Positions 24,078 through 48,042 of a DNA stretch of 64,000 bases are shown in pieces (position 1 is the first letter of the stretch; each line of letters opens with the position of its first letter). Origin of the DNA: Thysanoteuthis rhombus (taxonomy: Eukaryota; Mollusca; Cephalopoda; Oegopsida; Thysanoteuthidae); assembly GCA_963457665.1 (NCBI GenBank), contig OY735233.1, positions 28,760,637 through 28,824,636 on the forward strand, given 5' to 3'. The translations under genes were made by a program, and so were the position numbers. The notes beneath the pieces are model-generated. The model worked only from the letters and a program-made list of their open reading frames with translations. It searched no databases and was not told the origin of the DNA.

Positions 24078-24183
24078 GTTGCAGCGATGCCGAATCCACG
24101 AAAATTTTCGAGAAAATGTATTCTTTTCCTCGTGACGAGTGTGGTTGTTACTATGTTGCTATTACCAGCTGAAATCTTTGAAT
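24078..24183 (+). CDS. Sulfotransferase exon 1: start codon and membrane anchor
   Basis: First coding exon of a Gal/GlcNAc-6-O-sulfotransferase-like enzyme. The ATG at 24087 has G at -3. It opens a short basic cytosolic tail (residues 1-10, MPNPRKFSRK) followed by a hydrophobic stretch (about residues 11-27), the arrangement of a type II Golgi anchor. A splice acceptor (attgcag, ending 24077) precedes the ATG by only 9 bases, so an upstream non-coding exon is expected. The donor GTAAAT begins at 24184 after one base of codon 33 (phase 1). Joining to the next exon gives Tyr33 and keeps the frame. The anchor role is inferred from position and hydropathy; the sequence is not conserved enough to prove it alone. 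Confidence 0.72.
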
Positions 24184-25119
24184 GTAAATATCTTTTGTTT
24201 ATCTCTTGTCAGGGACATAACTATAAAAACTATTTCAACTTGGGATACGACTTGACTAACCTGAATTAAAAACTTACCGAAAATATCTATGTCTAGCATT
24301 TGTCTTGTGGAAAGAACTAGTAAATCAGAAACTTTGTCTGGTTACTCATCGATCGAATCAGTGGTAGATGCTTGGAGTGCATCCACTATAGGTAGTAAAA
24401 TTCATTTCTGAGTGATAGTCACACAATTCGGCTCAGCATGTACTGAACTCTGGCTACGGCAGGAAAATAGTCTTCATCATAGAAAATTTAAATTCATTTG
24501 AAAATATTTTGAAAATAAATGATTTCGTACAAATTTCATTGTCAAAAGATACTGACACACAAAAAGGTTTTGTTTGAAATCAGTGTGTATTTCCATCCCC
24601 TGTGTGTATCTGAAGGAGTTTACAATGCCATAACTACAGGAAAAAAAGTCAGTTTTCAGTCAGTCTAGGTTTTAACCCGACATTTTGGATGAGTAGTGAT
24701 CGCTCAAATTCGTGAGCCTGTTAGGGAGTACTTGATAATAATCAAGAACTGTGTGCAACATAAACCCTGGACAGCCCAAAGTACGTATGAGCTGAAATAG
24801 CATGATAAAAACAAGAAAAATGAAGCTCGAGAGCTAATTGGAATACTTAATTGCAAGATATCAGATAACAATTTAGCCCGGTTTACAAATTGCTGATAGG
24901 CTTAACTTCCAAAATTAATTGTTTTAAAAAATACTTTCGCATGATAAGTGCTACTGATATCCATCAAAAATAGCAGAATATTTGGATTGATAATGATCAC
25001 TGAAACTAAATTGAATGGGTCAGTAAAATGTCTGCAATATTCATAGTATCATATCGCACGAATCCACGGGCAAATGTTACTAAAAATTTCTCTGCAAGTA
25101 CAAGTAGTTTAGTTTTACG

Positions 25120-25195
25120 CTACACAGTACGTAAAAGCAAACAAGATGTAACTGTACTTATCTATTGGAACATATTTTAGAGAACTTCGGGTATC
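25120..25195 (+). repeat. Diverged copy of the exon 3 donor region
   Basis: It shares 'acacagtacgtaaaa' and much of the following 60 bases with 26891-26965, by eye about three quarters identical. It lies in the intron between exons 2 and 3. It may be a relic of a duplicated exon or a dispersed repeat that donated the exon 3 splice donor. Confidence 0.55.
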
Positions 25196-25558
25196 TAAAG
25201 AACATTAGACTTTCGAACACTCTCACAAGTGTTTTGTGATACTTGCTTTCCATGCGAGATAAGTATCTTTGACATGCTAAAACTTGCTTTTATGTTTTGA
25301 TAGGTAGATAGTGACTATAAAAACCTTTGTCTTACATGACAATCATATATCTAATCAAATATATTCATGGTTGTAATTGCATGTTAATATTTTGAAAAAC
25401 CTTGATAAATATATTTAAAGGATGAAAAAAATACTTTAAAATATTGTTAGGCCCTAGAAGGTCACCAGAAGTCGATTTACCATAGATTCATATAATTTCA
25501 ATGTGAATTTAGTGATGATATGTTTTAAATCATCGAATGCGGGCATTTTTCGTTACAG

Positions 25559-25699
25559 ATCATGGTTATTTACGTAGGATTTTGTCAACGGATTTGACGA
25601 ATCTGCCAGCTGAATTTAATTGGTCCCTAGGGCGAGTAGAGGAAGTTTCAAAGAATGTCAAAAACGAAAATATTCTTACAGAGAAAGAAGAACAAATTG
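25559..25699 (+). CDS. Sulfotransferase exon 2: lumenal stem
   Basis: It encodes residues 33-80. The acceptor is 'cgttacag' (ending 25558) and the donor is a strong GTGAGT at 25700. It enters with two bases completing codon 33 and leaves one base of codon 80 (phase 1 at both ends, so the exon length is a multiple of three). The product is charged and partly helical, with one N-glycosylation sequon (Asn53-Trp-Ser). That fits the poorly conserved stem between the Golgi anchor and the catalytic domain. A phase 1/1 exon can be skipped without shifting the frame. Confidence 0.68.
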
Positions 25700-26854
25700 G
25701 TGAGTGCAGTCATCTATTTACTTTCCCACATTTCTTGATGTAGATATCCAACTATAAGATCAAGTAATTTGATCATAACAATAGGTCGTTTCTTAAACGA
25801 GAGTTTGATAAAATATCTATCATCAAAATTTCCACACACTTCCCTTGAGTGCTTTGGGGAGGAACCCAATATCTATGTGAACGATATTAGGACTCTCACC
25901 TGGGAGTGAAAACTTGTATAAACAGGACGAAAGTGATTTTTCACTTATGAACAAATCAGTGAAATCAATAATGGGAGTTTAGCTTGTAAAAAGAAACAGA
26001 TGATCACAATGGTCGATAATGAGTATAAAAATGAAGTGAGACCATTATTGATTTCAAGAATTCAATATGAGTAAAATACGATGCATGTTTTGAATAGAAC
26101 ATCAGACAAGCCTGGCTGCTTCAGGGTCAAAATTCACTCTAACAAGAGCTCTAGTAAAAATAATCAAAACATTCGCAATGTAAGGGGACTTGATGAAATA
26201 GAATTTAGATATTTTTCTAGATAAATGACATGAAAAGCTAGATAATTCTACTTATAATTCGAGTCAATTTAAATGTTCACTGAAAACTAGCATACATTTT
26301 CTCCTTCTCTCTTTATTTTTTCTTCCCCTGTCTTTCTCTTTCCATCTCCCTTTCGTTGTTAAATGACGTAGGCATAAAATCTGTCTCCTCGTTTCCCCTT
26401 TCTCTATATCCATCCATTTAAACGATGTTGGCAGAGGTATACGCTGTCTGTGGGCTTTGTAAGTGCTTTGCTATTTCTAATGTATTTAAACGAAAGTCTG
26501 CTTCTTTTTTTTTTCAAAATAATTGAACTTTCATCTGCATTTAGCTTTTGTTGTACAATGTATATACATATATCAAGTGGATGAAATTTAGATTTTACTT
26601 GGTCTGGAATACCAGCGACAATCTTAGCCATGGAACAGGCCCCGTAGATAGTTGGAGTGGAAAGTTGAAGAGATAAAATAATGTTAAGGATAATTACAAA
26701 TATAATCATCATTAAAACGGTCTTGAGAATTGTGTGCGATGATTGAAAGAGATTACGACTTTAACTTCATTTCTCTGTGCAAAGCACATTTTCTATTACT
26801 TAAATCTGTGAAAAACGTGTGAATCTGTTTAGCATATTTTATAAATAATTACAG

Positions 26855-26905
26855 ATGAACTTGGTATTCGTTTACAGCCAAGAGATTCTCCTACAAACAC
26901 AGTAC
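26855..26905 (+). CDS. Sulfotransferase exon 3: short stem microexon
   Basis: A 51-base exon for residues 80-97 (DELGIRLQPRDSPTNTVQ after splicing). The acceptor is 'aattacag' (ending 26854). Two donors are possible: GTACGT at 26902 and GTAAAA at 26906. Only the second leaves phase 1 and keeps exon 4 in frame, so it was chosen. Like exon 2 it is a multiple of three and symmetric (1/1), so it may be optional. The sequence around its donor has a diverged copy in the previous intron at 25120-25195. Confidence 0.5.
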
Positions 26906-27202
26906 GTAAAAACAAGCAGAATGTAACACTTCTTATTTATGGAGACATATTTTTAGAGGACTTTGGATGGACTTTTTCTGTAATTTAACTTTGATAAATA
27001 TATCTATAATCTACTTGGTGGTGGTGGTGGCGAGTATGTATACCACCAATAGCCAGTTTTGTGGGATATTAGTGACGATTTTTATTCCCAAGCAGTCGTT
27101 ACATTCACGTACTTATAAAATATAAAACAATCTGTCTGTCTGTCTGCCTGCCTACTTTTTTATATTTGGATAATGAAATTTTCTGATATGATTTGTTTGC
27201 AG

Positions 27203-27383
27203 AAAGGAAATCAAACGGAATAAAAAAAGTCATCATCCTTGCCTACATGCGGAGTGGTTCCAGCCTGACGGGGAAACTTTTGGAGCAAAGTGACAATTCC
27301 ATTTATTTCTTTGAGCCTCTTCGTTCCTTAGAATGGTCGTACTCGAGAAGACTTCCCTTGGTAGATTTTAATAACAATACCAG
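27203..27383 (+). CDS. Sulfotransferase exon 4: 5'-PAPS-binding loop
   Basis: It encodes residues 97-157. The core is KKVIILAYMRSGSSLTGKLL, with the 5'-phosphosulfate-binding (5'-PSB) loop RSGSS at residues 113-117 (27250-27264), followed by IYFFEPLRSLEW. These match the first half of the catalytic fold in the CHST1-7 family, which moves sulfate from PAPS to carbon 6 of galactose or N-acetylglucosamine on glycans in the Golgi lumen. The acceptor is 'tttgtttgcag' (ending 27202) and the donor is GTAAGA at 27384, phase 2. A sequon (NNT) sits at the 3' end. This exon has no 3'-PSB, so it needs a downstream exon; both 35465 and 47235 supply the required single base. I see no second 5'-PSB exon in the window. 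Confidence 0.9.
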
Positions 27384-29755
27384 GTAAGATTAGTCTTTTA
27401 CCTTGTTTCCATGTGTCCGACGATTAAACATCTCACCACAATTTATACTGACCAGAATGATTGCATGCAATAGAAGGGTATCCGTCTTTCAAATGCCCTA
27501 GAACGATGCTTCATCACAGATATCTCTATGAAATACAAAATTGAAGAACAGTCAACAGATTTCCCATTTAACCGCGAAAAGCGTAACAGTGTTTCTGGAT
27601 ATTGGAAATAAACAAATGATAAGTAATAAACCAAATTCAATGGAAGTAATTTTTCTCTCATTGAATATTCTAAACATATCGTTATGTCTCTAAATTTCTG
27701 AGACTGACTGGTAATACGCATTACAAACATGGACCAGTACAGATTTTGCCTTTTGTCTATATTCGTTGAAATTTCATAAAATACTGACTTAAGCAGATAT
27801 CGTTCATATCAAAATAAACATGCTTAAACTTTAGTCTAACCTAATAAAAACTGTTTCACTTTCCTCTCTTTTGGACTCGAATGCATGCTCATGCGCACGC
27901 TCATATACACACACATACATATAGATAATGCATGTGCATGTTTATGCGTGTATATATGCAAATTCAAAGTATCAAAATTATTGGAAGATTTTTATTTCTA
28001 CGAATAAAAATCTCTGTTTAGTTATCTAACAATACATAAATATATAATCTGCAAGTAAGTTGTCAGAGTCTAGAACAAAGATGGTGTTTTGAACTACCAA
28101 GTCAAATCAATGGCGCCCTAGATTATAATGAGTAATTGCATATAAATGTTTGGACAGGTACTTCTAAATATTTGGGAATGCGCTGTTGTGAAAGATGTGA
28201 GAAAATTGGAATTTAAAACAATTTTAACAAAGATTCGACAACCGATAGCATTTTGGCCTTTAATGCAAATAAAAGTAAAACTGCTTCTGGTCATTCGTAA
28301 CAATTGAATATAATCATGAAACGGCATCAGTGAGTTTTATATATAATCATCATCTTAATTATTATTACAGCTATATTATAGATATCACATGTAAAGGTGG
28401 GTAAGATAATTGTATCATACCAAATTACACGCGGAGTAGATTTAGCTGCATTGAAAATCCCGCAGTACTTTTATACCTGCCGCTGCCTGCCACTTCCTGC
28501 TATTATACCTTTATGAAACATTCTGATGCATTTCGTAACACACACACAAAAAAAACCAACAAAACACTGCTGTCTTAGCTATGATGATTCACAGACAACA
28601 GTTCGAATGCTTACTTCCTTGAAAAATCAAGACGATACTAATTCTAACTTGTGATGCCAACATACACCAAAGGAAAGGCAGTGCTTCAGACTCACATCTC
28701 TGTTTTACATGGACTATCAAACGGCGGACATCTTACTTCTGTCACCCAGACTGAATAGCTCGGTTAATCAGTTGGTAGATAAGTTCTGTTTGACAACACT
28801 CACGACATAACCGAATTTCCCTCATCGACATGGCGTCTCCAATCGGTTAACTAAGATCTGCTACCGGTCCGTCAAGCTTCTTTTTCATTGGATACATCGC
28901 CAATACCAACCAACAAGCAAGCATACAGCGAATAATTTAGTTGACGTACGAAGAATGCTATCACCAAGCCTCTAGTATCATTAATTCTTTCTAAATAAAC
29001 TCTGGCATAGATATTTACTCACTGCATAAAATCATACATGGTCCGACCGAAAAAAAAACAACAAAAAAACAAAAAACAAAACAAAACAGTGGTATCTTAG
29101 ATGCTGAGTTCGTAAGCGACAGTCGTAGCAATCATCTGGAGAGTCAATCTTTCAAGTCATTGATACGATACCACTTGTATTCTCATTGGGAATTTGATTT
29201 TCAGAGAACGATCAGTTCAATGTGAAAGTATGTCTTAATTTTTTCGGACCATATTTTAATGTCTATTCGCAGGTAATTCATAACGTGAGTTTAAGTGCCA
29301 ATGACACCTCATACATTGCAACGGCCACATTATGTAGAATAGGAGACCAAGCTTATACACTCATATCTCCAGCTTACTCTGTGGATGTCATTAATTTATC
29401 TTGACTACGCCAACTTTGATCTGCCAACCAATACTCAATAGCGAAAAATCATCTGTCCAAGCTCTTCACTACCTTTTTCATACTCCAGTAACGATGTATT
29501 TATGCAATGTTCGACATACTTCTAGCGAGCTTGAATTTCATCCTCACCCAAGATACTAAACACTCCAGATGGATCTTTAATGGTAAAACTAGTGATGGAA
29601 TTCATAAAAATACTTTGAAATAAGATATTACTGCTGATTTTAGAGTCATTGGCCTCTGAGAGGCTGCCACCACGATATCTAATTTTTCAAGGAATTCAGG
29701 AATTATAATACGAAATGTGGATATCTTATATTGATGTTAATTTATTGTTGTACTC
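27384..29755 (+). other. Intron sequence, first part of intron 4
   Basis: No further exon with a sulfotransferase motif was seen. Short open frames (27443-27730 minus, 29222-29404 plus) lack recognisable features. A CA/TA run lies near 27904-27960. Confidence 0.5.
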
Positions 29756-29759
29756 TATC

Positions 29760-30240
29760 TTTCTATATATATGATTATAAATTGCGTAATATTATATAGA
29801 AACATTTATTTGAAATGATCTTCCGTCATTACACGGTAAATGTATCATTCCCAGACAACATAAACGATTAAAGAAAATGGAACTGCTGCTGGAATCGAAC
29901 CTACAACTGATAGGGTAGCTGCTTCAACGTAGTGATGCTCTTACCATTGAGCTAAACTACCACCGGTAATGCAAAGACCCAAATAACTGCCCCCACCATC
30001 ACGTTTATATCAACACGACTGTTATATGTTAAGAAATGGATGTATATGATCTGACAGAATCAATTCCTGCAGCAGACCTATATTCTATTGATTCTATGTT
30101 GTCTAAGCTAAATGATACATTAATCGCGTAACGACAAGAGATCATTTAAAATAAATGTTTTTATATAATTTAACTCAATTTATAATCATTCTGTCGGATG
30201 ATACATATCGATTTCTTAATATATATATATATATAAAAGG
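29760..30240 (-). repeat. Palindromic composite of two tRNA-like SINE arms (copy 1)
   Basis: One arm (about 29795-29990) reads on the minus strand as a tRNA-like head: A-box-like 'tagctcaatggtaagagca' and B-box-like 'ggttcgattcc'. A tail region 'aatgatacatttaccgtgta' follows it. A second arm (about 30058-30240) carries the same B-box flank and tail on the plus strand ('aattcctgcagcag', 'aatgatacattaatcgcgta') and ends in a TA run. The two arms point away from each other around a unique-looking spacer. The same arrangement, including the spacer, recurs at 46.26-46.68 kb. Confidence 0.6.
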
Positions 30241-31735
30241 GGAAAAAATTTCAACACAAACCAACCAACAAACAAATGGACTTGTAGTATCAAAAACGAA
30301 TCCCCTTTAAACAATAATAGTTAAGCAAAAAACATCATATGCCTCTTCTAAAGAAAATCCAAACGTTAAAAAAAATCTATATTTGAGTATCAATGGTAGA
30401 TTACAAATTAAGGTATAATAATCCCCCAAATTCCTTCAAACAATTAAAATGCAAAAACAGAAATACTCTATCAATAATATAATGGGACATCTTACATAAC
30501 TCGAGAATTTATTGAATCAGAGACTGAAGTCTCAGCCAAATGTCGCCACAAAGAACTAAAAGTTAAAAAAAAGAAATAAACCATATAACAAAACATAACA
30601 ATAGAAGAGATCTTGTGTTACCCCCCCCTTCTGAAAAAAAAACAACAAAAAAAAACTGTTGATTAATGACACCTATGCAATGGAATTAGACATACATAAT
30701 TACAGGCATAGATATAAGATATATTTGCCAATGAAATCGGAAAAATCTATATCTAACCCAATTAATTAAACTCTTATTTCACTCGAAAAAGCCTCCCACT
30801 AAAAATCATTTTATTGAAAAATTGAATAAAACATTAGTACCCATATCTTATGTAGATTACTCGTACTTAAGATTTTATCTGCAACTACATAGTACCATGA
30901 TACGAAATGAAAAAGTATTACGAAATTAAAAAATGAAACAATCAATCAGTTATAAGATTAACTGGTAGATGTGTATTAACCTAAGAGTCTGTAAAGTTGA
31001 TTTAGTTGATATCCAAATCATTTATAATATATTTCTATAATAATTTGAAAAAATGTGAAATTTGCTTTGGAGGAAAAATTCAGAACTATAGATTTAAAAA
31101 ATAATTAGGATTTATTGATTCACAGGAATGAGTCTTGGCTAAATGTCACCATGATATAAAACTGGAAACTAATTCGAAAATTAAAATATGACTGAGAGAT
31201 AAGCAATAATTGAAAAATTGGAATGATGAATTACATTGTAGTCAACGAATCATCATAATTTTATTATGATTCTTTAAAAATTTGTAAATTTTACTTGGAA
31301 GGAAAATTCCGAACTATAACGTCAAAAATAATCAAGCTTTTTTGAATCAGAGGAATAAATACCTAAGTATCAACACAAGGAAATTTATAAATAAAACTCA
31401 TGATGGAAAAATAACTTCTGAATATATGAATAAAACATAAAATGACTTTGTTTACCAGCCCCCCCCCCACATAAATCACTATAGGTATAGATATAAAATG
31501 TATTAGTCAATTAAATGATCCACTTTATTTGATGAAAACTAGATTGATACCAATAATAATGCTTCTCGCAATGGACTCTAACCATCACAGTATAAAAAAT
31601 TACTGGAAGATAAATAATAACATAAAAATTTGATGAAGTAAATTGAATTGTCACCCAAACTATATATCAGTTTTATGATATGAAATACATGTAATGATAA
31701 CATTAATACGATAGATCGCATAAAAAGGATAAGGA
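30241..31735. repeat. Degenerate repeats in intron 4
   Basis: Several related blocks recur: 'attgaatcagag' type starts at about 30509, 31112 and 31342, 'aaattc(a/c)gaactata' at about 31077 and 31307, and 'ggtatagatata' at about 30707 and 31485. The last two tail blocks carry C-runs. Identity is low and I cannot define a single unit. Confidence 0.35.
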
Positions 31736-31739
31736 GAGA

Positions 31740-32390
31740 TCGCGAAAGGTGGGAGCTATGTTGTCACTGATAGTACAGACGTCGAGGTCGAAGTGGAGGT
31801 GTCTGAACAACTTTTGAATCCATATGGCTTGGAGCGTACCAAGGAGTAATTATGGAGACCGGGTACAGTGTGTGCGCCAAACTGTCAAGTTGCATGTATG
31901 ACTTGGGGGCTATCATTTGACGCTGGCAGACACTCGACGGACAGACGGAGAACACGGAGTTTTATCCATGCGCGTTTCCCGAAGTAAAGAAAATTAGGAG
32001 AGATCGTTGTGACAATTGGATAGTGAAAAGCATTGCCATTTAATTCACGAGAAAAGATATATTCCGTAATGTTATATATGTTTGGAGTATGTGGCGAGGA
32101 CACAGTTTAGTAGCTATGTAGCTGGGCGTATGTGAGTGTGTTTATTTGCATCCCAACGACTACATATATGACACGAAGTCGAATTAAGTTGGGGTCCCAG
32201 ACGTTCGAAAACGTGCGAGCACAGGATTCAATGAACCTGAGTCCTCGCATATGATTTTACAAGGACGTCGGAACAAGCTGGACTATGTCTACAGGACATG
32301 ACCATTGGAAAGAAGTGCTGTTTTCGATATCTAACTGAATGGAGGGTTTCGTATTTAGTTTAGTAAAAGTTTAAGGGGTGCTACAGTTGG
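31740..32390. other. GC-richer segment in intron 4, possible LTR-like remnant
   Basis: The base composition is clearly higher in GC than its surroundings. It ends in 'gggtgctaca' at about 32387, followed by 'gttggtattaagg', which could be the end of a long terminal repeat and a primer-binding site. No matching second LTR or coding region was found, so this is weak. Confidence 0.2.
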
Positions 32391-34912
32391 TATTAAGGGG
32401 GGAGACGAACATACCAAAATAATTTGGCACAGCTGAAACAATTTTAAAACGACAAAACGATGAAACAGAATTATCAATTTTTGAAGTTTTAGAATTATTG
32501 TATACTCCAAGACCATTATATTTCAAATTCTTTAAATTTTCCGACAGACTAATATTTGATTAAAAAACAAGCGAACGAAAAAAAACAAACAAACAAAAAA
32601 TACAATAGGATGTAATCAGGTTACAACTTTCAATCTTTTTAGAAAGTGATACGATCAGGAATGAAAGAGGAAATGAGAATAGATTAGAAAAGTAAAATAA
32701 GATAAAAATCTCATTTCACCAGATGAATGAGTTCACAATAATTATGAGTAAATCATCTTTTCAAAGTTTATATTGAATTTGCAAACACATAGACAATAAA
32801 TTAGAAGAGATTATTAGAGATGTCAAGGGAGCAGTGTTTCCCAGCTGTTTTATGGCCATCGCCACCTTTTACTTGTTTTAAAGTAAATGAAATAAAATAG
32901 AATTGACACTAGTTCCAGAAAATACAATTTAAGTAAACATATCAGCCTACGTATCCAAGTGTAGTACTGGATAGCACCAAAAAATATTCAAGGGAATTTA
33001 TATCATATAGCTTTATTATTACATGAGCGAAGAAAATTAATAAACTGTTTCTCAAGAAAAAATAGCTGTAACAATAAACATTGATTGATCATTTATTGAT
33101 TTATATATGAAAATCAAAATTAAAAGTTTTTAGCTGTGAAAATGAAGAAGTGGAGTTATTTTTGAGTTTGAGATATAAGACATTATTGAACATGTTTTCT
33201 TTTACAAAATTTTTGTTACATCATTTCAAAGGATAGTATTCATATTTGATGCCTTATCATCTAGATCTTTTGTTGTTTAAAAGTGGTAAAAGCAAATTTA
33301 CTCATTACTCATCTTGAGGAACATTTTCCTTGGTGATATTTTCCTAGAATCAATATTTCTTAGAGATAGTAGATTACATTAAAAATACATTGATCTTGGT
33401 TTTCATTGCTATAAGCACTAATTTGTATTTACAAATACTATGATCACTCATTTGAAATAATTAAAGAAAGCACGATGTTTCCCTTTTAGACATCGCATGT
33501 AGTAGGCGTTACAGAACACTACCCAAACAGCAATCCCTCGTAACAAACATTATTAAAATTTACCACTGCTTTTGTCTGAAATTTGAGATGAAAATTCAAT
33601 GACCCTCGTCTGCATTTTCCACAACAATATCGAACTGGCGCAGCAGCTGTGTCATGAAGAAACAATCTCCTTCGAAGAGACAAATTACGTACAACAGACC
33701 AGTTGCATAAGTGAGGCCGCCAAATTTGATGTTCGATATCACTGATGGGCCGATCGACAAGTGGAAAAAAGAAAGGTTTTTGAAAATTCATTGAATTTCT
33801 GACTTGTAATACACAAACAAAAGAAACTTTTCTCCTTATACAAATAATTCTTTTGTGATATAAAAATATCACTATTGAAAAAATAGTCTGTTTATCTTCT
33901 GAATACGCCCATTTTTTATAAATCAAATGTCTCAACAGGTGAAACAAGTTACTAAACGCATTTGAAAAAATACACATACTATGAAAAATACATAATGAAC
34001 AAATTATCTCAAGTTTTTGTGAACATTTTATGCTATTATCTCATCAAAACCTGTTGATGTCACATCTGACACACTAACGCACTCGTTAACGTCGTGGTTA
34101 ATTTTCTGAAAACTACGACTTTAATCGAAACAACGTTTAGTGAAATCGATTTTATCACAGATACAATCATCTAAATGGGTTATTCAATTTATTGTAGAGT
34201 TGAAAATTTTGCAACTAACTTATTTCAAATAAGAAAAACCACTTTAATCACAATTTAACCAACAATATTTTCTATTAATGTTGATTCGTATATCCCCGCT
34301 CAACAAAGCCTAAACGAAAGGACGTTGAATGAAACGACGTTGATACGCTTATACCTTGGTGTACTTGCACAATCTTAAGACATCGTGATTTTTTTTATGA
34401 ACTCACTGCAAAGGCAGAGGCACTTTAAAAAAAAAAGATAAGTTCAATCGGTTGATTATTACAATTTAGCCTCTCACATGATAATTATCTTTGCAGTAAT
34501 CTTGTTTTCACTATTTTTCATAAACATGCATTAAAACAATATCAACCTACGCGAATCAGGCGAGTTAATCGACGCATCCCGAAGTTAAAAGCAAAGGCGC
34601 GCGCACACAAACATTTATTGCCCTGTCTGACTATGAGGGTAAATTTAGTTGCTACTCCCTATGCAGGTAAGACAGTGATGACATATTTCCTCACTTACCT
34701 ACTCTCAGTCATCTCGACACATCGACCATTATTGCATGCCTATGGCGATGGGACAGAGCAAAGGGAACAGTGAATTTATGCATTTCCCTAGTCTATTATT
34801 GCAAAGTAGTTTATTACATATAGCGCTAAAAGATCTGCTGTTGCTTTAAAATGTGAAGAAAATGCAAAGCGAATATTTCTAAATATAGTGGCTTGTACCC
34901 TTGAGTATAAAA
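32391..34912. other. Intron 4 sequence, unassigned
   Basis: AT-rich. The only sizeable open frame is on the minus strand at 33519-33977 (152 codons), Cys- and Arg-rich at its C-terminus, with no family I recognise. Confidence 0.4.
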
Positions 34913-34953
34913 TCCGTATTATCAGAAAATAACACACACACACTCACACACAT

Positions 34954-35030
<77 letters not shown>

Positions 35031-35099
35031 TATGCATATATATATATATATATATATATATTCATATGCATATATATATACATATATATATGTTTATAC

Positions 35100-35146
<47 letters not shown>

Positions 35147-35224
35147 CGATGCACACTGATCGCTCTGCAGCTTTTAAAAACACAACAATATCCGTATTAT
35201 CAGGAAATAACACACACACATACA

Positions 35225-35308
<84 letters not shown>

Positions 35309-35405
35309 TATACATATATTCATATATATATATTCATATATATATATATATAGAGAGAGAGAGACGATGCGCACAGATCGCGCTGCGGCTTTTAAAAAGA
35401 CAGCC
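34913..35405. repeat. Tandem duplication of a CA-TA-GA microsatellite cassette
   Basis: Two units (34913-35190 and 35191-35405) share the order 'tccgtattatca', CA run, TA run, GA run, 'gagacgatgc', a 'gatcgc(t/g)ctgc(a/g)gc' block and 'ttttaaaaa'. The second unit is shorter because of its TA/CA lengths. The array ends only 59 bp before the exon 5A splice junction. Confidence 0.85.
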
Positions 35406-35464
35406 TAAAATCATTATTTGCAGCCATTAACAAATCACTTTTTTATATTTTTGGTTTATGCAAG

Positions 35465-36302
35465 AATGGGTGGTTCCAAAGTCGAAGATGCCAAAACTAG
35501 GATGAAAATCATGGAAGATTTGTTCACGTGTCAATTCCACTCCACCTACAAGAACATTTTTTTTGATCGCTCTCGTAGCAGCGATGATCGTTTCCGCCCG
35601 TTTTATGATTGTGTTGGTAATGATCTTCATAAAGTTGACGGATGCCTGCATCTAATCCAGGATCTCTGCGATCGGAGCCTTGTCCGCATTGCTAAAGTTA
35701 TCCGAATGAAAGCAGACGACGTTCCTAAAATGCTGGAAAAATTTCCTAATCTGAAGGTGATTCATTTACTAAGGGATCCCAGAGCTGTCCTCAGTTCGTT
35801 GCTGCAGATGCGCCAGTTTAGAGATATCAAGAACAAGGCCCAAGGCGTCTGCAACTACATGAAGGATAATGTTATCCATTTTGAAAAGATTTTCAAATTG
35901 TACCCCAAACAGACTACGACAATGTTTTATGAGAGTCTAGCTAAGAATCCTATCAATATGACGAAGAAACTGTACGATTTTATTGGAGTGATAGCAACAC
36001 ACACAGTGATCGCCTGGGTAAAAACAAATATGCTCGGGAAACAGTTAGATACTGGAACATACTCGGTCAAAGACAGAAATTCGCTAGCTGTAAGTAATAA
36101 GTGGAGAAAGCAGATGAAATTTGAAGATATCAACACTATCGATTCCGTCTGCAAAGATTTCTACGTTCAAACTGGTTATGAAGAAGTTAGGAATCGTGAA
36201 AACCTGAAAGATTCTCAAATCCTTCATTTCCTGAAAGATTCCAGATCAATTGTTTCTGATTTAGAGCTCCGAAAAGATACATCGCTAAATGAAAACGACT
36301 GA
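35465..36302 (+). CDS. Sulfotransferase terminal exon 5A (3'-PSB and C-terminal half)
   Basis: Spliced to exon 4 this gives Arg157 and then residues 158-435 to a TGA at 36300. It contains LKVIHLLRDPRAVLSS with the 3'-phosphate-binding RDPR at residues 260-263 (35772-35783), then the typical late helices (YESLAKNPINMTKKLYDFIG) and a KWRKQM plus VCKDFY ending. Cysteines sit at the positions seen in exon 5B (FTCQF, YDCVG, VCNYM, VCKDF), so disulfides of the family are probably kept. The acceptor is 'tttatgcaag' (ending 35464), modest because the pyrimidine tract is interrupted. Total length of 435 residues is normal for CHST1-7 enzymes. Exon 5B is an alternative; retention of 5A would truncate any transcript reading on to 5B. 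Which sugar is sulfated cannot be told. Confidence 0.88.
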
Positions 36303-36320: not shown

Positions 36321-36336
36321 AATAAAAATAAATAAA
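36321..36336 (+). terminator. Cluster of polyadenylation signals after exon 5A
   Basis: Three overlapping AATAAA hexamers begin 19 bases after the stop codon. This supports 36302 as a real transcript end, with a very short 3' untranslated region if used. Confidence 0.6.
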
Positions 36337-36382
36337 AAAATCTTTTCTTTTTATTTACCCAGCATCACTGCCACCATCATCG

Positions 36383-36431
<49 letters not shown>
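36383..36431. repeat. (CTA)n microsatellite
   Basis: About sixteen CTA units just downstream of the exon 5A polyadenylation signals. Confidence 0.9.
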
Positions 36432-37368: not shown

Positions 37369-37370
<2 letters not shown>

Positions 37371-37440
<70 letters not shown>

Positions 37441-37449
37441 GCATATATG

Positions 37450-37525
<76 letters not shown>

Positions 37526-37550
37526 TAGATAGATAGATAGATAGATAGAT
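37371..37550. repeat. TA / CA / TA / GA / GATA compound microsatellite
   Basis: Runs follow each other in that order, the same TA-to-GA order as at 34.9-35.4 and 46.6 kb. Confidence 0.9.
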
Positions 37551-37574
37551 TGTCCATATCTAAACAACTTACAC

Positions 37575-37682
37575 ATTTGTCAGAAAATACTGCCTCCACG
37601 ACACCGATGATGGGGAATTGTGGAGAATCCTGGGGAAGGTCTATGTCCAACGATGGTCGATAAAAGACTGATGATGATGATG
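37575..37682 (+). mobile_element. RTE-like LINE, extreme 3' tail
   Basis: It carries the terminal coding ([19 protein letters not shown] equivalent, 37613-37668) and a (TGA)n tail at 37669-37682. Only about 100 bp of the element are present. Confidence 0.65.
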
Positions 37683-40600
37683 AACACATTAGTATAGTAC
37701 TTTTTCCAGTGAGAGATTGCTGCTTTTCTTCTAACATTCATAAATATCGTTAGAACGTTAAAACTGTTACCTCAATACCATCATCATTTTCAGCAATACG
37801 AGCAGATTTATCATCTTTTTCTCAATAAGCGATAGGCTAATTGGCTGGTTTTGCTGATTTAGGTCCTTGGTTAAAACACCAAACCTTCCAATCTATATAA
37901 TCAATATGTTTAGCCTTGCCTCTACACTTTATTCATCTTTTCTCTCAGTATGATACTTTTAGTTGCTTTGTCCTTACTTTCTTCAGGCTTATGCTTCAGT
38001 GTCTTGGTGAATACAATGGAAACTTCAAATGTAAGATTAGTAGTCACTGTACTTAAAAGCAACTTATACTGAATGTGAGGGAAAATCAATAGTAAATAAA
38101 CTTTCTTAGCAGACTTATTTATACAAAAAACAGATTTCTTGGTTCCTACATACCATACTAGGCGAACTAATTTACGTATCTGGATTATAAAAATGAATGT
38201 TCATTCTTATTAGCGGAGAGAACTTGAAACCACGAGTACGCGCCAGGCAGAGAGAAAAGGAAAGAGATCATGTTGGGCTGAAAAAATTCCCGAAGAGAAA
38301 AAGCCCAATCTAAAAACCAAAGCTAATGTATTGTTTTAGAAAAAAATCGAAACAATCTGTATTCTCTAAAATAGAGTGCATCAGTTTGCATAAATGTTAT
38401 CCGGTTGTAAATTTTTTTTGAGTAAAATTCGCCTCAGTAACAGTTGGGAATTCAATCCACAAACTTGCAGTTGGTACTGAAGTTGTGAGGTGGATGAACC
38501 CGCAGACGAAGTCAGGATAGCTGAGTCATTTACAAGTATATCTTCATCAGATTGAGAGGCAAAATGTATAATCACGCCAAGTGTCTGAGAAAGTTTTTAA
38601 CGTACAAAGAGCCCTGGTTTGTTTGGTCATTTGACACATTGAATTGAACTAAATGTTGAAGAATTGGAAGAATTCAGTTGATTATTTCCCACTTTTATGG
38701 ACTAAACGCACCGAGTTTGTTCTTCACAACTGTTAAAGTTCTGTTTTCCAACCTTTATTGTTTTCTCTTTATAATATAAAATTGAATGAAAACTTATACT
38801 GACATCAGTCTTGTTTCATACTCATTTCTCTTTATTTCTTCTCATCTATATTAGTTGGCTTCGTCAAACATATGTTTAAAATACGATATGCTCTAGAATT
38901 ATCTTATATATGTAGAATTAGACCAAATCTCGAATAATTGAATTGACAACCAAGTTCATGTATAAGTAAATCATAACACTGGGAAACAGATTTATATAAG
39001 AATAAAATACTCTAAGAGAAGAAACATATCACGAAGAGATGATGCTTTAATTACATACTGATAAGAAAAATGCGTACAATATCTCCAGCTAATTTATAAT
39101 TTGATTTAATCCGAAAGCAAAGTAACTCCACGATGTAAAACAGAAAAAATAACGAGCAATGATCAACCACTAAAAAAAAAAAGAAAAAAAGATATATAAA
39201 TAGAATAAAAGGAAGATCAGACAACCTAGAAAAATAGACCCCCCCCAAACGCCATGAAATAATCTAAAATAAATTGCCTGAAGAAGTTCAAAAAGAGCAG
39301 AAACGCAAACATTTCTGTATAGCGAATCGTTTACTTCATCATATATATATATATATGTTCCAGGTTCAATTCCTGATATGAGCGAAGAGTATAGAAAATA
39401 CTTCATTAGGACAAATCTCCCCAAGTACTCAGTAGCTAATTGAATACACTCTAAGCGGTGTGATTGGGATGGAACAAAACAAAACAAAAAAAAACTAACA
39501 AGAAAAACACGCAACGTATTATACTCTCAACTTCACCTTTTGATAATTCTTAAACACTCTCATATTTAGTTTTACGTGTGATAACATTTTAATTTTTTCC
39601 TTTCATTTAATCTGGATGCTACTTTATATGAAATCACCATAATAATGATCTTGATCAGGATAATTACTGATAATGACAGCAGCGATAATGAGTCTAGAGG
39701 GTATTGGTATTCCTTGGCAGCCAGCGCTCCCCATTACCGATTACCAGAGTAAATAACAATCAGAAACTATGATAAAAATAAGTGAAATACTCATGAAAAA
39801 GTATAAATTTGAATCTTAAGTGGAAAGGGAAGCTAGTCTCGGAAACAATAACAAATGTTCGATACTTAGTTGGTTCTCCCAAACTGTGGCCTCGAACCAG
39901 TATAGATTTTAACTTATATGTAAATTCAATCAATGCAGAAGGAGAATTGCAAAGAATCATCTATTCAAAGTGGTTGGATGCAAGGCATAACGAGCATTGC
40001 AAAATAAAAGGAATAAATTGAATTGAATGAAAATAAGAGGTGACATCAAAAACATTTATTGAAATCCAAGAACTGAGTATATAACGAATACAAAACTATT
40101 GCTCGGATTTAAGAATCGATAATTCCTAAAACTTCCTCTCTTCCTTATTTCTTTCGAATGATTCATTGTTTTTATAACTGCTTTAAATAAGGTGTATTCC
40201 TGCTAAATCACATCATTTCTTTTCTTTATCAAACTTGTCAAATTGCTTTTACTGCTATTGTTTTAACTAGTAAATTTACCTGTGTAATTCAAGTGTTTTA
40301 TTACCATAAAGCAGTTGTCGAAATAAGGACAAAATCGTGATTTATTTCATTTGCTATTTTATCATTGCTTTAGATAAACAAAAAACAATAGTAAGAAGAT
40401 GGAGAAAAACTATTAAAATAATAGTGAAAATGTCTCGCCTAAAGATTTAAAAAATATTCGTATCACTGTCATGCTAAAAAGGTAAGCCCATTCATAATTC
40501 TTGAAGTGTTTTCTATATCAAATGCGCAACAGTTCAATTATAACAAACCCCACTTTTCGCTTCTCATGACTTCATTATCATCTTGCACATCGATCTTTTT

Positions 40601-41056
40601 ACTTTTGAATAGTAGTTATTTTAGTCAGAGCAGTAGTCGCATTTCTCGTGCATACTTAAGTAAATAAAGCATTATAAATGGAAAATTTTCAAAAATTTAG
40701 AAACATTATTCTTGTTCTGGGATGTCGCCATCTGTGAAAGTGATCCCCAGTTCTTTCTCATTGGTTTGAGTTGGTCAAAACCTTCGTTCTGTTTTGGTCG
40801 ATAGATGAATTAGGACCGTTTACTTGGAACCAACCGTTAGAAAGGATTGTTTTTTATTGTCATATCAACGTGCATTTAAATATCGTCAAAATTAAGGCAT
40901 TTTTACTTAATGATTCTGATAATTAAGATAGAAAAAAATGAGCAACAATTTCGGCATATTATACTTTTCTCTTTTAAGAAAGGCAGATATGTGACGGACG
41001 ATTGAAAGCAGATACTTAGCAACAACGGGTAGAACACTCATAGGATCGAGGTAATC

Positions 41057-41059
41057 TAT

Positions 41060-41111
<52 letters not shown>

Positions 41112-41371
41112 GTCTTTATCGTCCATCGTTGTACATTGACCTTCCCCAGGATTCTCCAGACCTTTTTATCATGGGCGTCACGGAGCCAATACTTTGTGAA
41201 CTTGTCTAGTTCGTCTCTACGTCTTGTATAATGTCGGTCTCGGTTGTGCATCTGATCTCTGGGGATCCATGTTATGAGTTGTGTTGTCCATCATTTGTCT
41301 GCCACTCTTGTTACATGACCATCCCATTGCCATTTTAGTTTTCTAATGGATTCTACAATGTCTCTTAGTGT
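41057..41371 (-). mobile_element. RTE-like LINE, 3' end with long GAT tail
   Basis: On the minus strand it reads KLKWQWDGHVTRV, WIPRDQMHNRDRH, YWLRDAHDKKVWRILGKVNV and QRWTIKTD, then an 18-unit GAT run (41057-41112 as ATC) that would encode poly-Asp. The run is an expansion of the usual RTE tail triplet. Truncated at the 5' side near 41371. Confidence 0.75.
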
Positions 41372-43190
41372 AACTTTAGAAAATTAAATTCATTGTCCAT
41401 GCTATTATTGTGAATGCAACATAACTTGCAACAACTGGAAAACTGATTCCATGTGGTTCATAACAGCGACAAAGAATGACTTATCACTTAGACAATATAT
41501 TTCGGTAAATGCCTTGTTTTATCACTGGTTTTGTTAAAGGTGGTCGAAATAAGGTCAAATCTTCCGCTTTATAACAAGAATCTCTTTGGCGATTCCCTGC
41601 TTATACATGCTACCATACCGTAGAAGACTTACGCATACAAATGAGTATTATTATGCATAAAGACTCGTTGAATTCAGAGTAATACGATTTTTATCACTTT
41701 GTATTTCTTGTTATATCAACTGCTTACATATATACAGAATGAGGTCGAAACTTGGCAAGTCTTTAAATATCTTTCAAATAATTATATGTTTTTTTAAAAT
41801 CAATACTCCATAGTCGAAGTGTAAACGAAGAAAGGAATCGTCAAGACCAATAGATAAGTGTGCAACTGAAATAACAAGGAGAAAGAAAAATACAACATTC
41901 TGAATTTTCAATAAGTAATTAAAATGATCTTATGTAAACAAGAAGGAAGTATAGCGTTGAATTTAAGATATTTTTGATAGATGGTCTATTTTCATAGTAT
42001 AAACACATGCATACATTGTTAAGTAAAGACATTCTTTGAACTTCTTTTTGGAGAATCCAGCTTTTCTGAAAAGGTTGTCTTGATGAATATCAGCAAGTCA
42101 ACGTCAGTGAAACATAGTTACATCAAATTATGGGCTTCACTTTCTTCGATACGACTCTGTTATTTCAACTGAATGATATATCAGTGATTTCTCACATTTT
42201 CATTAAAAAGAGCCTGTATTCACATTTGAAGATTATTCATAATTTAAAAGATATTTTTTTCATTGAATTGTTGTTCTAATTTTCGTTATTTTTTGTTTTT
42301 ACAATTATCAGATTCAAGGGGAACATGAAAGAATTGATCATAAAATTTATCGGTACATTTTGAAATTCATAAGGTTTTCTATGAGGACCAAAGTCACTGA
42401 CAATAGATTGTGTAATCAATAAACTAACGCGATGCATACGTTTTTCGGCTCCAATAGACGAAGCATTTAATACGTTGCGTGAGGTTACACAACCTTGTAC
42501 AGCATTTTATATGCGTTCTGTCTGTTTTGTTCAATGGAATATTGTAAGTCGAACTCTTGCAGTTTACAAGTCAACAAAATTATGAATTTTCTCCCAAAAC
42601 ATCATCCTTAAAGAAACGTGCCCTGAAATACTCAAAGAATCACACACACTCAGACACTTGCAACAGGAAGATGATTTTTAAAGATATACGAAATATATGT
42701 GTCAATTAGTGCACATTTGAAATTTCAAAAAAAATATGCGACATTTTTCGACCTTCAATTTATTCATAAATAACAAGTATTTAGTTAACAAATCCAACTA
42801 TATCATGCTTCGGTAAAACAAGCTTAAAGTGGTACACCTTGTTAAAGACTGGTGTTTTCCGACTAATTTCAAATGCTGAGTTTTACGGCTGATATTTCGA
42901 ACCTTTAAAGAACATAAAAACGCACATCAAGTAGATTAGATAAGACGAAAAACGAAAACTATCCAGGAACTGAACATTTTACCATCTTCATTTCTGGGCG
43001 TGGAGTACATCTATGTGCGGGCTTAAATTATTTTACCTACCTAAAAGTCTAACTTAAAACCATATCGAATCATATTTAATTAAAGAAAAAAAAAATCGAG
43101 CCTGACCGTAATTCTTGAAATTTAGTTGAACGTCATGCCTGTCTCAGAATTCGGAAAATATTGCGTCTATACAGATTTAAAAAGATTAGA
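41372..43190. other. Unassigned intronic stretch
   Basis: AT-rich, nothing recognised. Confidence 0.5.
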
Positions 43191-43194
43191 TACA

Positions 43195-43430
43195 TTCCTA
43201 CAGAGCAACGCCAGAATGACAGACAATCAATGGACATCACCACTCACGACTTGGATCCCAAGAGCGCAACTGAGGCTGGCAGAGTACTAGATGGAGAGAC
43301 AAACTAGAACAATTCAGAAAGTACTGGCTCTATGACATCCACGATAGAGAAGTGTGGTGAATATACGGGAAGGTCTATGTCTAACGATGGACGTTAAGAG
43401 ACTGATGATGATGATGATGATGATGAAGAA
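43195..43430 (+). mobile_element. RTE-like LINE, 3' end
   Basis: It contains degenerate WTSPLTTWIP (43231-43260), YWLYDIHDREVW (43322-43357) and GKVYV (43369-43383) coding, and ends with a TGATGA run at 43403-43430. An in-frame stop replaces a Trp/Arg codon in the WRI block. Confidence 0.68.
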
Positions 43431-44355
43431 TTTCTTATTAATTCACGTATTTATTATGAGGCATTTTGAAATGTGACTGCGCAGAACTGCAGCAGTTTCG
43501 TTATAAGAGAAAGTGAAGCATTTATCAACTGAAAAGTTGAATCCGATCAATTTGAATGTTCAGTTAATTACGTAACTATTTTCAGGCTCGGTATTCACTT
43601 GACTATACCCTCATACCCTGTACTCTAATACTCGACTGTAACGGACTTACTATTGTCGAGTTACTTTGATTATATTTATTAGTACCTTTACATGAGGCAT
43701 ATTGAAAAAGTTCTAGGACTGGTTTGAAACATCAATGTGCTTGGGTTATTATAATAACATGAAGTTCTGCTTTCACATTCTTACAGAAGATTGGTATAAA
43801 ATCAAGGCACTTTTCTTTCAACTTAATTTCGAATTTTGGAAACAGAAAAAAATCATCAGAAATGTAATATCATAGAATTCTTTCCACCTGAAATTCTGGA
43901 ATGCATAGGGTATGATGTCAAAATAGAGGTAAGCGATGCATATATCTTTTTTCGCAACGCATGATTTCGAAGAAAGAAAATAATTCAATGACTCTGTGGT
44001 AGCATCAGTGAGAGAAGAGATAAAATAAAAATCATAACATGAAACTCTCAAGGTTCAATTCATGGAGTTCCCCAAAAGCAATAGACTCAATGTTTTTCAT
44101 AAATTCAACTTTATGCTTGAGTCACGTTAGGTGTTATTATTGATTTAGAATCCTACACTATTGGATCGTTTTTTTAAAAAATCTTCCCTCTTTTTTAAAG
44201 AATATAGTAAGTGACTATAGAATGGTAGCAAGCATAATAAGATTTGATTTCAAAAGGGAAAGGAACAAAATCATCCTTGAGAAGAATTCACGCATATGTA
44301 GGATAGTGAAACTTTTCGGGTAGTGATAGAAAAATATATAGAGCCGTTTTGGAGT
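43431..44355. other. Unassigned intronic stretch
   Basis: Nothing recognised on either strand. Confidence 0.5.
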
Positions 44356-44359
44356 AACT

Positions 44360-46255
44360 ATAGTAGCATAAAAGAAAAAAGTAAAAACATACTCGTATTA
44401 AAAGACAGAAAAGGCGAAATTAACAAAAGGACTAGATATCAAAAACATGTTAAAAATACTACGAGAAACTTAATGCCTTGAAAAAAGGACATCGGATCGA
44501 CACTTTGATAGAAAACAATGGTGTCCCTGACGTAATAACAGTGGAAGTAGTTTTGCACTCTGAAATATGAAAAGTGGGAAAGCTCAGGCGAAGATGGTAT
44601 AATGGTAGATCTTCTGGGAGCAAATTTTTATTCATTTATTGATTAAAAATAAATAGTTGGTTCGAAACGTCTTACCATTTTCCATGGAGGGCACACCTGC
44701 AGCGCCGCTCCCTCCGAGCAAAGACGACAGAGGTTCCGTCCCCTGAGATAAAATATCACCAACACTCTCTACAGAGAGCACCTTTCGACAAACAGGCCGG
44801 GAAAATGCAGGTGTAAACATAGTCAGAGGATATTTGTGCAATTGAAAATACTGCTAGGATACTGCATTAATATCGGAAACAGCAAAGAATCTATAAAACA
44901 TGTTAAAGATACCATAAGAATAGACAGATAAGCCTTAGATGTCGAGGAATACATTTACCTATATCAGGCGATGAAGCTAGAAAAAACGTGGAAATGAAAA
45001 GAACATAAAAATAAACGGAGAAGCTTCATAGGAATACATTTACCTAGGTCAGGCAATTCAGTTAGAGATAGACCACAGAATGAAAAGACCATTGGAATAT
45101 ACGGAGAAGCCTTAATCAAATTCAAGGAATACATTTACTGGGGTCAGGCGTTAAAGGCTAGGGAAAGAACGTGGAAATGAAATACTATAAGAATACACAG
45201 AAAAACCTTAAAGACGTCAAGGAACATAAAGCTAGAGAAAGACCATGGAAATGAAAAAATCATAAGAATAGACGGAGGATCCAATGAAATGAAAAGATAA
45301 TTAGAATAGACATAGAGACCTTAGTGGGAGTCAAGGAATACATTTATCTAGGTAAAGTAGAGAAAGACCGGAGAAACGAAAAGACCATAAAAATAGGCGG
45401 AGAAGCCTTAGAGGAAGTCAAGAAATACATATGCCAAGTCAGGTGATCAAGCTAGAGAAAAACCGTGGATATGAAAAGACCATAAGAATAGACGTAAAAG
45501 TCTTAAGGGAGTCAAGGAATACATTTACCTAGGTCAGGCGGTGAAGTTAGAGAAAAAACGTGGAAATGAATAGACCATAAGAATAGACGGAGAAGCCTCA
45601 CATGTAGTCAAGGAATACGTTTACCTAAGTCAGGCTATAAAGCTAGAGAGAAACGAGGAAATGTAAAGACTATTAAAAAAGACGGAGAAGCCTATTGGGA
45701 AATGAAGGAATACATTTAACTAGGTTACGTGAAGATAGAGAAACACCGCAGAAGTGAAATGCTGTAAGAATAGACGGAGAAACCTCAAGGAAGTCAAAGA
45801 ATACGTTTACATTGGTCACGTGATATAGCGAAAGACCACAGAAATGGAATGAGGTGAAGAATAGCGATAAGCGAAAAAAAGATTCGGTGTAAATGAAGAC
45901 TAATAAACAATCATATTGCCAATATGGTAAGAATTTAAAGTGTGGAATTAAATGCGAAACACCAGCTATGATGTCTGGGTACAAAACCTGGAAACTTTCA
46001 AAATCACAGAGGGTAATGGAAAAGTTAGGAATATCACTCAGCGATAGAAAAAGATCAACATGGATCCAATAGTGGACAAGGGTGAAGGATATCTTACAAG
46101 TAATTAAGCAATAAAAATGAAGATGAGAAGTGCACATAGCGAGAAGATGGAAAGACAGATAGCACAAAAGGTTAAGTGATTGACGCCCGTGGGACAGTAG
46201 ATGCATATTAAAAGATGGAGAGACGAGATTAAAAAAAATGCTGGTAAGACATAAT
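44360..46255 (+). mobile_element. LINE remnant with internally amplified RT segment
   Basis: Plus-strand translation in shifting frames gives a linker and RT start: LVLKDRKGEI near 44393, and IENNGVPDVI(T)VE with GKL/APGEDGIMVDLL-like coding near 44511-44615. A large tandem array (44912-45860) follows. It is followed by the RT tail: GYKTWKLSKSQRVMEKLGIS at 45976-46035, DRKRSTWIQ, VKDILQVIK, and a WDSR/RWRDEI-like end near 46185-46230. The RT core that should separate the start from the array is largely missing. It resembles the LINE at 59985-60520 more than the YIYLGQRISM family. Confidence 0.6.
44912..45860 (+). repeat. About eleven degenerate ~93-bp tandem units from a LINE RT
   Basis: Each unit starts with a form of 'ataagaatagacggagaagc' and continues through 'gtcaaggaatacatttacct' and 'aagctagagaaa'. 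In frame it encodes IRIDGEALEEVKEYIYLGQ plus AIKLEKDRGNEMKR, that is 31 codons. Units 4 and 5 are shortened by internal deletions, and unit boundaries fall near 'gaaaagacc'. The segment is normally single-copy in LINE reverse transcriptases. Confidence 0.8.
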
Positions 46256-46642
46256 AGAAATGGGTGCAGGAATCGAACCTGTGACCGATAGGTATTGTCA
46301 GATTATATATACATTCCTTAATAATACAATTGTCCAAAACAAATCGTGTATATACAGACAGTGGATGAACATGATGAGAATTTGGAGATAAAGTAGTTAT
46401 TAGGCCTTTGCATTAACGATGGCTCTTAAATTCAATGGTAAGAGCAACACTACGTTAAAGCGGCTACCTATCAGTCGGAGGTTTGATTCCTGCAGCAGTC
46501 ACATTTTCTTTAATTATTTTCCTATTAACGCTGTCAAGGCCAAATGATACATTTACAGTGCAATAAAGGGAGATCATGTCAAATAGTGTTTAGAAGTAAT
46601 ATGACTCATTTATAATATCTCATTTATGATTATTTCTGTTGG

Positions 46643-46690
<48 letters not shown>
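46256..46690 (+). repeat. Palindromic tRNA-like composite repeat (copy 2)
   Basis: A short inverted arm (46258-46295, B-box-like 'ggaatcgaacctgtg' read in reverse) is followed by a spacer. A plus-strand tRNA-like head comes next ('aattcaatggtaagagca' near 46430, 'ggtttgattcctgcagcag' near 46479), then the tail 'aatgatacatttacagtgca' and a TA then GA run at 46645-46715. The spacer is also shared with copy 1 ('gtcagatcatatacat' versus 'gtcagattatatatacat'). Confidence 0.6.
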
Positions 46691-46713
<23 letters not shown>

Positions 46714-46715
46714 GC
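46645..46715. repeat. (TA)n(GA)n microsatellite
   Basis: It directly continues the 3' tail of the tRNA-like repeat. Confidence 0.9.
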
Positions 46716-47234
46716 CAGAAGGTATGTCGAACTACCTGAGTGGCAATTAGTTTTTATCAGAACTGTTAACTCTGATGTACCCAATTCCTTTTATTCAAAT
46801 CATAAAATTTTTGAAGACGTTTTGTCTTTAGTAATTAGATGCCCCAAACCCAATGAAATAATTTTCATTCTAATCGGTTCAGCTCTTCCAGTGTTCAATA
46901 TTTTTTGCATGTTGACACATAAAATGCGAACAAACAATTGGATCGGTCATAACTCAACAATCCCCCATGAGTCTACAAACAAAATTCCATTGCAATATAC
47001 TGAGGAATAACGAAGTTATTCAATCGAGAAAAAGGAGACCATGACACCAACAACGACGACAGACACGCATAGTGAATGATAGTCCCAGGGTTTTCTATCC
47101 TGGGACAAAAAATGATAACTGTTCGTTAATGAAAAATATAAAAGCATGCTTTTCCCTTACACGTCATATGCATATATTGAAAGTTCTATTGACAATTTGC
47201 CATGTTCATGTGTTTACGTCTTTGTTAATTTCAG

Positions 47235-48042
47235 TATTATCAACTCGAAGGCTGAACTTGCACGATTAAAAGAGAGCCTCATACGATCTATGTTTGACTG
47301 CAATTTTCGTGCAACTTACAAAGAAACCTTTTTGGACCGAATTGACGTGGGCTGCGCGAAATGCAAACCATTCTACGCTTGCTTAAAAGAAGAGATAGGC
47401 TTGGGTGCCGTTATTTCATGTTTACCCAAGGTTGAAAAAGAATGTAACGCTTCACAGACTCGAATTATCAAGACTATCAGGCTAAATATGCAACAGGCAG
47501 GCAAACTTTTGGAACAGGACCCCAACCTGTTGATTTTGCATTTGCTTCGTGATCCACGTGCAATCCTAAAGTCTCGAATCGTTCTCGGGGAGGCGCTTGG
47601 TAGCACGCGCAATTTGATGCAGCTTTGGTGCAACGATATGAAACAGAATATGGTCACCTATGAGAGCCTCGTGGATAGATTCAAAGACCGACTTAGCACG
47701 CTTTACTACGAAGATTTGGCCAGAGATTCAATAAGAATTTCCCAGTTGGTTTACGAACGTCTCAACTTGAACTTCACGAATGACGCCAGAAAGTGGGTGG
47801 AGGATGCGATGCTTGGGGAAGATGTGGTTGGTTATTCGTACGAAGTGAAGAGAAGGAATGCAAAAAGGTCGTCTAGAAAATGGCGGCATGATATTGCTTA
47901 CGAACTTGTGAAAGAAGCTGACGAAGCTTGCAAAGATTTTTACCAAAGGAGTGGATTCTTGCCAGTGAGCAATGAAACAATGCTCCGCAAAACTGACTTT
48001 AAACTGCGCAAAAAAAGTAACGTGAAAAATACTATTGCTTAG
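47235..48042 (+). CDS. Sulfotransferase terminal exon 5B (alternative 3'-PSB and C-terminal half)
   Basis: Spliced to exon 4 (phase 2) the first base gives Ser157, then residues 158-425 to a TAG at 48040. It contains LLILHLLRDPRAILKSRIVL with RDPR at residues 262-265 (47548-47559), LYYEDLARDSIRISQLVYER, then SRKWRHDI and ACKDFYQRSGF. Its order of motifs and cysteines matches exon 5A, but overall identity is low (about a third by eye), so the duplication is old. The acceptor is 'tctttgttaatttcag' (ending 47234). No 5'-PSB exon was found between 36303 and 47234, so this exon alone cannot make an enzyme; it is either an alternative end of the same gene or the last exon of a tandem copy whose front was lost. 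An intact 269-codon frame with conserved motifs argues that it is still under selection. Confidence 0.86.

Follow-up and report, generated by a model that had tools for sequence, protein, structure and literature searches.

A predicted carbohydrate sulfotransferase gene of the squid Thysanoteuthis rhombus with a single shared front and three candidate alternative terminal exons

In the squid Thysanoteuthis rhombus, a stretch of 64,000 nucleotides on contig OY735233.1 of assembly GCA_963457665.1 (C38:28760637-28824636; here called the window) contains the front and two back halves of a putative carbohydrate sulfotransferase gene, and a candidate third back half was found beyond the end of this stretch. 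The region examined comprised the window plus 100 kb of flank on each side (264 kb in all), and the genome searched amounted to 2.73 Gb in 514 contigs. Four shared exons and three candidate terminal exons, designated A, B, and C, make up the predicted gene (Table 1). Exons 1 to 4, when spliced, formed one open reading frame of 156 full codons and two further bases, and all introns of the predicted gene were of the GT-AG type, with phases 1, 1, 1, and 2. For exon 3, an end at 26901 was ruled out in favor of 26905, since the former broke the reading frame of exon 4 and of both terminal exons A and B. The highest hydropathy over 19 residues in the A chain (2.32) was located at residues 12 to 30, inside exon 1, and this hydrophobic stretch is predicted to be a type II signal anchor. 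Exon 1 may have its acceptor in an AG that ends at 24077, in which case an untranslated exon would precede it. At its exon 4 end, the shared chain carries the segment VIILAYMRSGSSLTGKLLEQSDNSIYFFEPL, which we take to be the 5'-phosphosulfate-binding (5'-PSB) loop; its 3' counterpart (3'-PSB) is encoded by the terminal exons.

Table 1. Predicted exons of the gene in window numbering (position 1 is the first base of the window; numbering is continued past the window end for exon C). A slash marks the predicted splice site.
Feature	Position	Strand	Sequence features
Exon 1, coding part	24087..24183	+	Start codon, short tail, hydrophobic stretch; open frame, GT donor, phase 1
Exon 2, stem region	25559..25699	+	CAG acceptor, GT donor, phase 1 to 1
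Exon 3, stem region, 51 nt	26855..26905	+	CAG acceptor, donor CAGTAC/gtaaaa
Exon 4, last shared exon	27203..27383	+	5'-PSB strand and loop ILAYMRSGSSL; donor TACCAG/gtaaga, ends in phase 2
Terminal exon A	35465..36302	+	Acceptor gcaag/A, LLRDPRA (3'-PSB), own stop; AATAAA 19 nt past stop
Terminal exon B	47235..48042	+	Acceptor ttcag/T, LLRDPRA (3'-PSB), own stop
Terminal exon C	75422-76241 (C38:28836058-28836877)	+	LIRDPRG, own stop

Exons A and B each completed the split codon of exon 4 (phase 2) and remained open to their own stop, giving spliced chains of 435 (A) and 425 (B) residues. Their identity was 34% (86/253, BLASTP, E 2e-53). An earlier note on this DNA had given the coordinates of exon 4, the starts of A and B, and the phase-2 joins of exon 4 to both, had read LLRDPR and an own stop in each terminal exon, and had judged the two to be about one-third identical; all of these statements held. 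A CAG acceptor at 35424 was rejected for exon A because it is in phase 0. Words of 12 bases shared by the intron downstream of exon 4 and the sequences ahead of each terminal exon, sought as candidate docking elements, proved to be few, and they were AT-rich or occurred singly. Arrays of AC and AT dinucleotides precede exon A (window 34932-35352) and end ∼110 bases short of its acceptor, and a CTA array lies past its stop (window 36383-36431).

The earlier note had also guessed that more terminal exons might lie past the window, and it was right, because exon C was found ∼11 kb past the window end. Exon C has a phase-2 acceptor (tttgtttacag/G), an intact frame of 272 codons, and an ATTAAA word 221 nt past its stop, and shares 37% identity with B and 29% with A. 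When a profile derived from A and B was run over the 264 kb, it found the three terminal exons and exon 4, and the next match had an E value of 0.52. Searching the genome with A returned A, B, and C as the 3 matches at E up to 0.001 among the best 9 candidates scored, and the search with C returned the same 3 at this threshold among the best 8. The PF13469 profile gave at least 7 matches among 24 candidates scored, of which the 3 at the locus were A, B, and C; PF00685 gave at least 39 matches among 61 candidates, and those on C38 were A, B, and C only. All three terminal exons lie within 41 kb.

Both spliced chains scored above the curated Pfam cut-offs of 22 bits for Sulfotransfer_1 (PF00685) and 27 bits for Sulfotransfer_3 (PF13469): the A chain reached 59.1 bits (E 5.7e-16) and 53.9 bits (E 3.7e-14), and the B chain reached 43 bits (E 4.7e-11) and 42.8 bits (E 9.4e-11), respectively. 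In both chains the match was one stretch spanning the junction between exon 4 and the terminal exon. The only other Pfam match of the chains at E up to 0.1 was a Sulfotransfer_4 match of the A chain, which stayed under its cut-off. Taken alone, exon 4 covered PF00685 positions 3 to 38 (E 0.12, under the cut-off), and the terminal exons ran from position 79 or 87 to 249-253; the domain is therefore divided between constant and variable exons. Each terminal exon was also matched alone by both families: exon A with E 1.9e-12 (PF00685) and 9e-12 (PF13469), exon B with E 1.3e-7 and 4.3e-9, and exon C with E 9.9e-11 and 9.2e-14 (41.9 bits for Sulfotransfer_1 and 52.6 bits for Sulfotransfer_3). Given the predicted splicing, a single chain would thus hold the 5'-PSB (RSGSS, exon 4) together with the 3'-PSB (LLRDPR in A and B, LIRDPR in C).

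An AlphaFold model of the exon A half had a low mean pLDDT of 61, with block means of 64 to 89 over residues 81 to 180. In a fold search with this model, the best matches were the tyrosylprotein sulfotransferases TPST1 and TPST2, and 5wrj (E 9.5e-4) was the sole entry of 268 at E up to 0.001. TM-scores against the TPST folds were 0.41 to 0.46 at sequence identities of 14 to 17%, for a low-confidence model of half a domain, which gives weak support to a general sulfotransferase fold of the exon A half. Searched by sequence among solved structures, the A chain had 5 weak matches, the best being the CurM sulfotransferase (E 0.003), with TPST2 at E 0.08, and the B chain had no match at E up to 10.

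Several features indicated that B and C, like A, have been kept as coding exons. The frames with A, B, and C were the three longest stop-free runs in the six frames of the 264 kb (297, 307, and 315 codons, the next having 253), counted from stop to stop and thus with some intron included, and with pieces containing masked bases excluded. From base composition alone, the chance of such openness was ∼1e-9 per exon. Between A, B, and C, second codon positions were 55 to 60% identical and third positions 26 to 34%, and of 86 fourfold sites whose first two codon bases were shared, 26 agreed (3/26, 14/30, and 9/30). Invariant in all three were the RDPR of the 3'-PSB, a YE pair, six cysteines, and a W-x4-MLG block. 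Since silent sites were near random while the protein was held, the frames appear to have long been maintained by selection, a pattern that is not expected of decaying copies. Near-random silent sites and identities of 29 to 37% also fit the description of A and B in the earlier note as an ancient pair.

All searches pointed to a single front. Used as a genome query, exon 4 had itself as its sole match at E up to 10, among the best 3 candidates scored. In six-frame pieces of at least 15 residues, the pattern R/K-(S,T,A,G)-G-(S,T)-(S,T) occurred twice in the window, as the RSGSS of exon 4 and as a minus-strand RAGSS at 15290, the sequence context of which differs from that of the exon 4 loop. 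A motif scan of the 264 kb gave 11 loose matches, and in the interval from exon 4 to C, exon 4 was the only one on the plus strand. No second 5'-PSB exon was found on the plus strand from exon 4 to C by profile and motif scans of such pieces, and tblastn within the window revealed no second front exon. A separate 5'-PSB exon between 36303 and 47234, which the earlier note had named, together with a promoter, as an outcome that would overturn its reading, was likewise not found by the scans from exon 4 to C, an interval that contains no masked bases. Among 1030 plus-strand pieces between exon 4 and C, the best scored 5.1 bits against exon 4, and this was outscored by all simulated copies of exon 4 at 30, 37, 45, and 55% identity (300/300 at each level), where copies were scored alone instead of being planted in the DNA, with RSGSS fixed and with no gaps, insertions, or stops.

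These results suggest, with good probability, one Golgi-type carbohydrate sulfotransferase gene in which three alternative terminal exons (A, B, and C) share one front and are used with alternative polyadenylation. The shared front with alternative terminal exons, as already proposed in the earlier note, is well supported by the DNA, with one front, three phase-matched backs, and no second front in the searches of locus and genome. In this gene model, the donor of exon 4 would be joined to one of the three terminal exons, with polyadenylation occurring separately after each. The three products would have the same membrane anchor and 5'-phosphosulfate loop, and would differ in the whole acceptor-side half including the 3'-PSB. 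Since a polyA-like word lies downstream of each of the three terminal exons, exon choice would be coupled to polyadenylation, and use of B or C would need transcription past A. The terminal exons would stem from an old tandem duplication and would then have been retained as coding sequence. We infer that each of the three products has enzymatic activity and that their preferred glycan acceptors differ. A wider reading, to which we lean somewhat less than to its opposite, is that the animal has no other gene for this type of sulfotransferase: the single front would supply half of the 3'-phosphoadenosine 5'-phosphosulfate (PAPS) site, and splicing and polyadenylation would select among three back halves, yielding three Golgi enzymes that differ in acceptor preference, each with an active site encoded by one constant and one variable exon.

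Some points weigh against the single-gene model. The use of each junction in vivo is a prediction from the DNA. The acceptor of exon A is AAG, and its pyrimidine tract is modest (10/16), as it is for exons 2 and 4. Of 2881 AGs in 48 kb, 228 passed a slightly stricter pyrimidine-tract test, so that a lone splice site is little proof. The nearest AATAAA or ATTAAA word of exon B is an ATTAAA as far as 715 nt past the stop, and polyA-like words were read in AT-rich DNA without a chance expectation. As to the front, the scans covered pieces of at least 15 residues, the settings of the simulation were optimistic, and the genome protein searches scored the best candidates only, which makes their counts lower bounds. 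An upstream front is possible where parts of the upstream flank consist of N.

The locus could instead hold three separate tandem genes, the fronts of B and C having been missed because they are very diverged or have an unusual 5'-PSB. Neighboring paralogues most often stem from tandem gene duplication, the gaps of 11 and 27 kb are large, and exon 4 alone is so weak in Pfam that a diverged front would easily escape this kind of search. Profile and motif scans across the gaps nevertheless found no front, nor did tblastn within the window; simulated fronts down to 30% identity all stood out, if under favorable settings, and exon 4 had no other match among the candidates scored genome-wide. We consider separate genes unlikely.

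The single front would likewise be left over if fronts had once existed and were deleted, with A as the only back half in use and B and C on the way to becoming pseudogenes, and B and C are indeed known from the genomic sequence only. However, both frames are unbroken (268 codons in B, 272 in C) and retain the 3'-PSB, a YED motif, the common cysteines, and phase-2 acceptors despite near-random silent sites, and both exons would need a recent and traceless loss of their fronts, which makes such leftovers quite improbable. Very improbable is a further scenario, in which B or C is expressed from its own short transcript as a non-catalytic binding or regulatory protein that lacks the 5'-PSB. It draws on the long open frame that each terminal exon forms by itself and on the fairly confident part of the exon A model (residues 81 to 180), but leaves the conservation of the 3'-PSB without explanation, and all three acceptors are in phase 2; moreover, the strongest hydrophobic stretch of the A chain sits in exon 1.

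Elsewhere in the genome, 8 of the 36 other PF00685 matches were looked at (three on C5, one on C28, and four on C7 and C13). By eye, the C5 and C28 matches were of a different kind from A, B, and C. The four frames on C7 and C13 (L029-L032) aligned no better than E 0.3 with A, B, and C and were ruled out as near relatives. Judged by eye, these four and the C5 matches are presumably heparan sulfate 3-O-sulfotransferases, and we take the C28 match to be a TPST. The PF00685 domain was matched in one frame on C7 and C13, and on C5 (L003, L005, and L007) from profile position 87 onward only. C6, C14, C16, and C17 carry eight full-length PF00685 matches of 195 to 202 bits, one with an internal stop; on C6, C14, and C17, two or three of them lie close together.

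Around the gene, 3 of 10 frames scanned were reverse-transcriptase/endonuclease-like (window 922-1428 on the plus strand, 13508-13780 and 14579-14857 on the minus strand). Their Pfam matches stayed under the cut-offs (RVT_1, E 0.007 and 0.01; Exo_endo_phos_2, E 0.0045), and they are consistent with old retroelements of the long interspersed element (LINE) type. A tandem array at window 45358-45825, with five copies of a 95-base unit and 75% matches, overlaps a minus-strand frame of 209 codons that has no Pfam match.

The predicted squid protein may belong to the CHST1-7 enzymes (GlcNAc/Gal/GalNAc 6-O-sulfotransferases) or to another group of Golgi sulfotransferases; it resembles CHST1-7, presumably sharing with them the type II anchor, an RSGSS-type 5'-PSB, the LLRDPRA 3'-PSB, a YE(D/S)L motif, and the cysteine pattern. 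In vertebrates, most of the coding region of the CHST1-7 genes lies in one exon, and swapping of back halves is, to our knowledge, not known for them. TPST1 and TPST2, as further PAPS sulfotransferases, provided the best fold matches of the exon A model, but at the low TM-scores and identities given above. Our search of the literature on cephalopod sulfotransferases and on sulfotransferases with alternative terminal, last, or mutually exclusive exons found no description of such a locus, in a coverage that mostly excluded subscription journals. As a rule, diversity in glycan sulfation comes from separate enzyme genes. For the Drosophila pipe locus, a shared part has been described together with many variable sulfotransferase domains (PMC3621409). 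The pipe isoforms reportedly have distinct functional specificities, as the title of a 2009 paper puts it. HS2ST and Pipe fall in a different Pfam family from the squid chains. Like pipe, the squid gene has, at the DNA level, one shared front and several alternative catalytic exons in tandem; unlike pipe, it has three copies instead of ten, and its chains match Sulfotransfer_1 and Sulfotransfer_3, whereas Pipe is a homologue of heparan sulfate 2-O-sulfotransferase. Judged by these Pfam matches, the squid protein is set apart from the pipe family. In the squid gene the 5'-PSB lies in a shared exon, and the cofactor site would be divided between constant and variable exons. If the gene model is true, a constant cofactor half joined to any of three acceptor halves would amount to a natural domain-swap experiment on acceptor choice, and this choice would be under the control of splicing and polyadenylation. 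The arrangement has a precedent in the fly, to which it would be a parallel in a different sulfotransferase family, with three backs.

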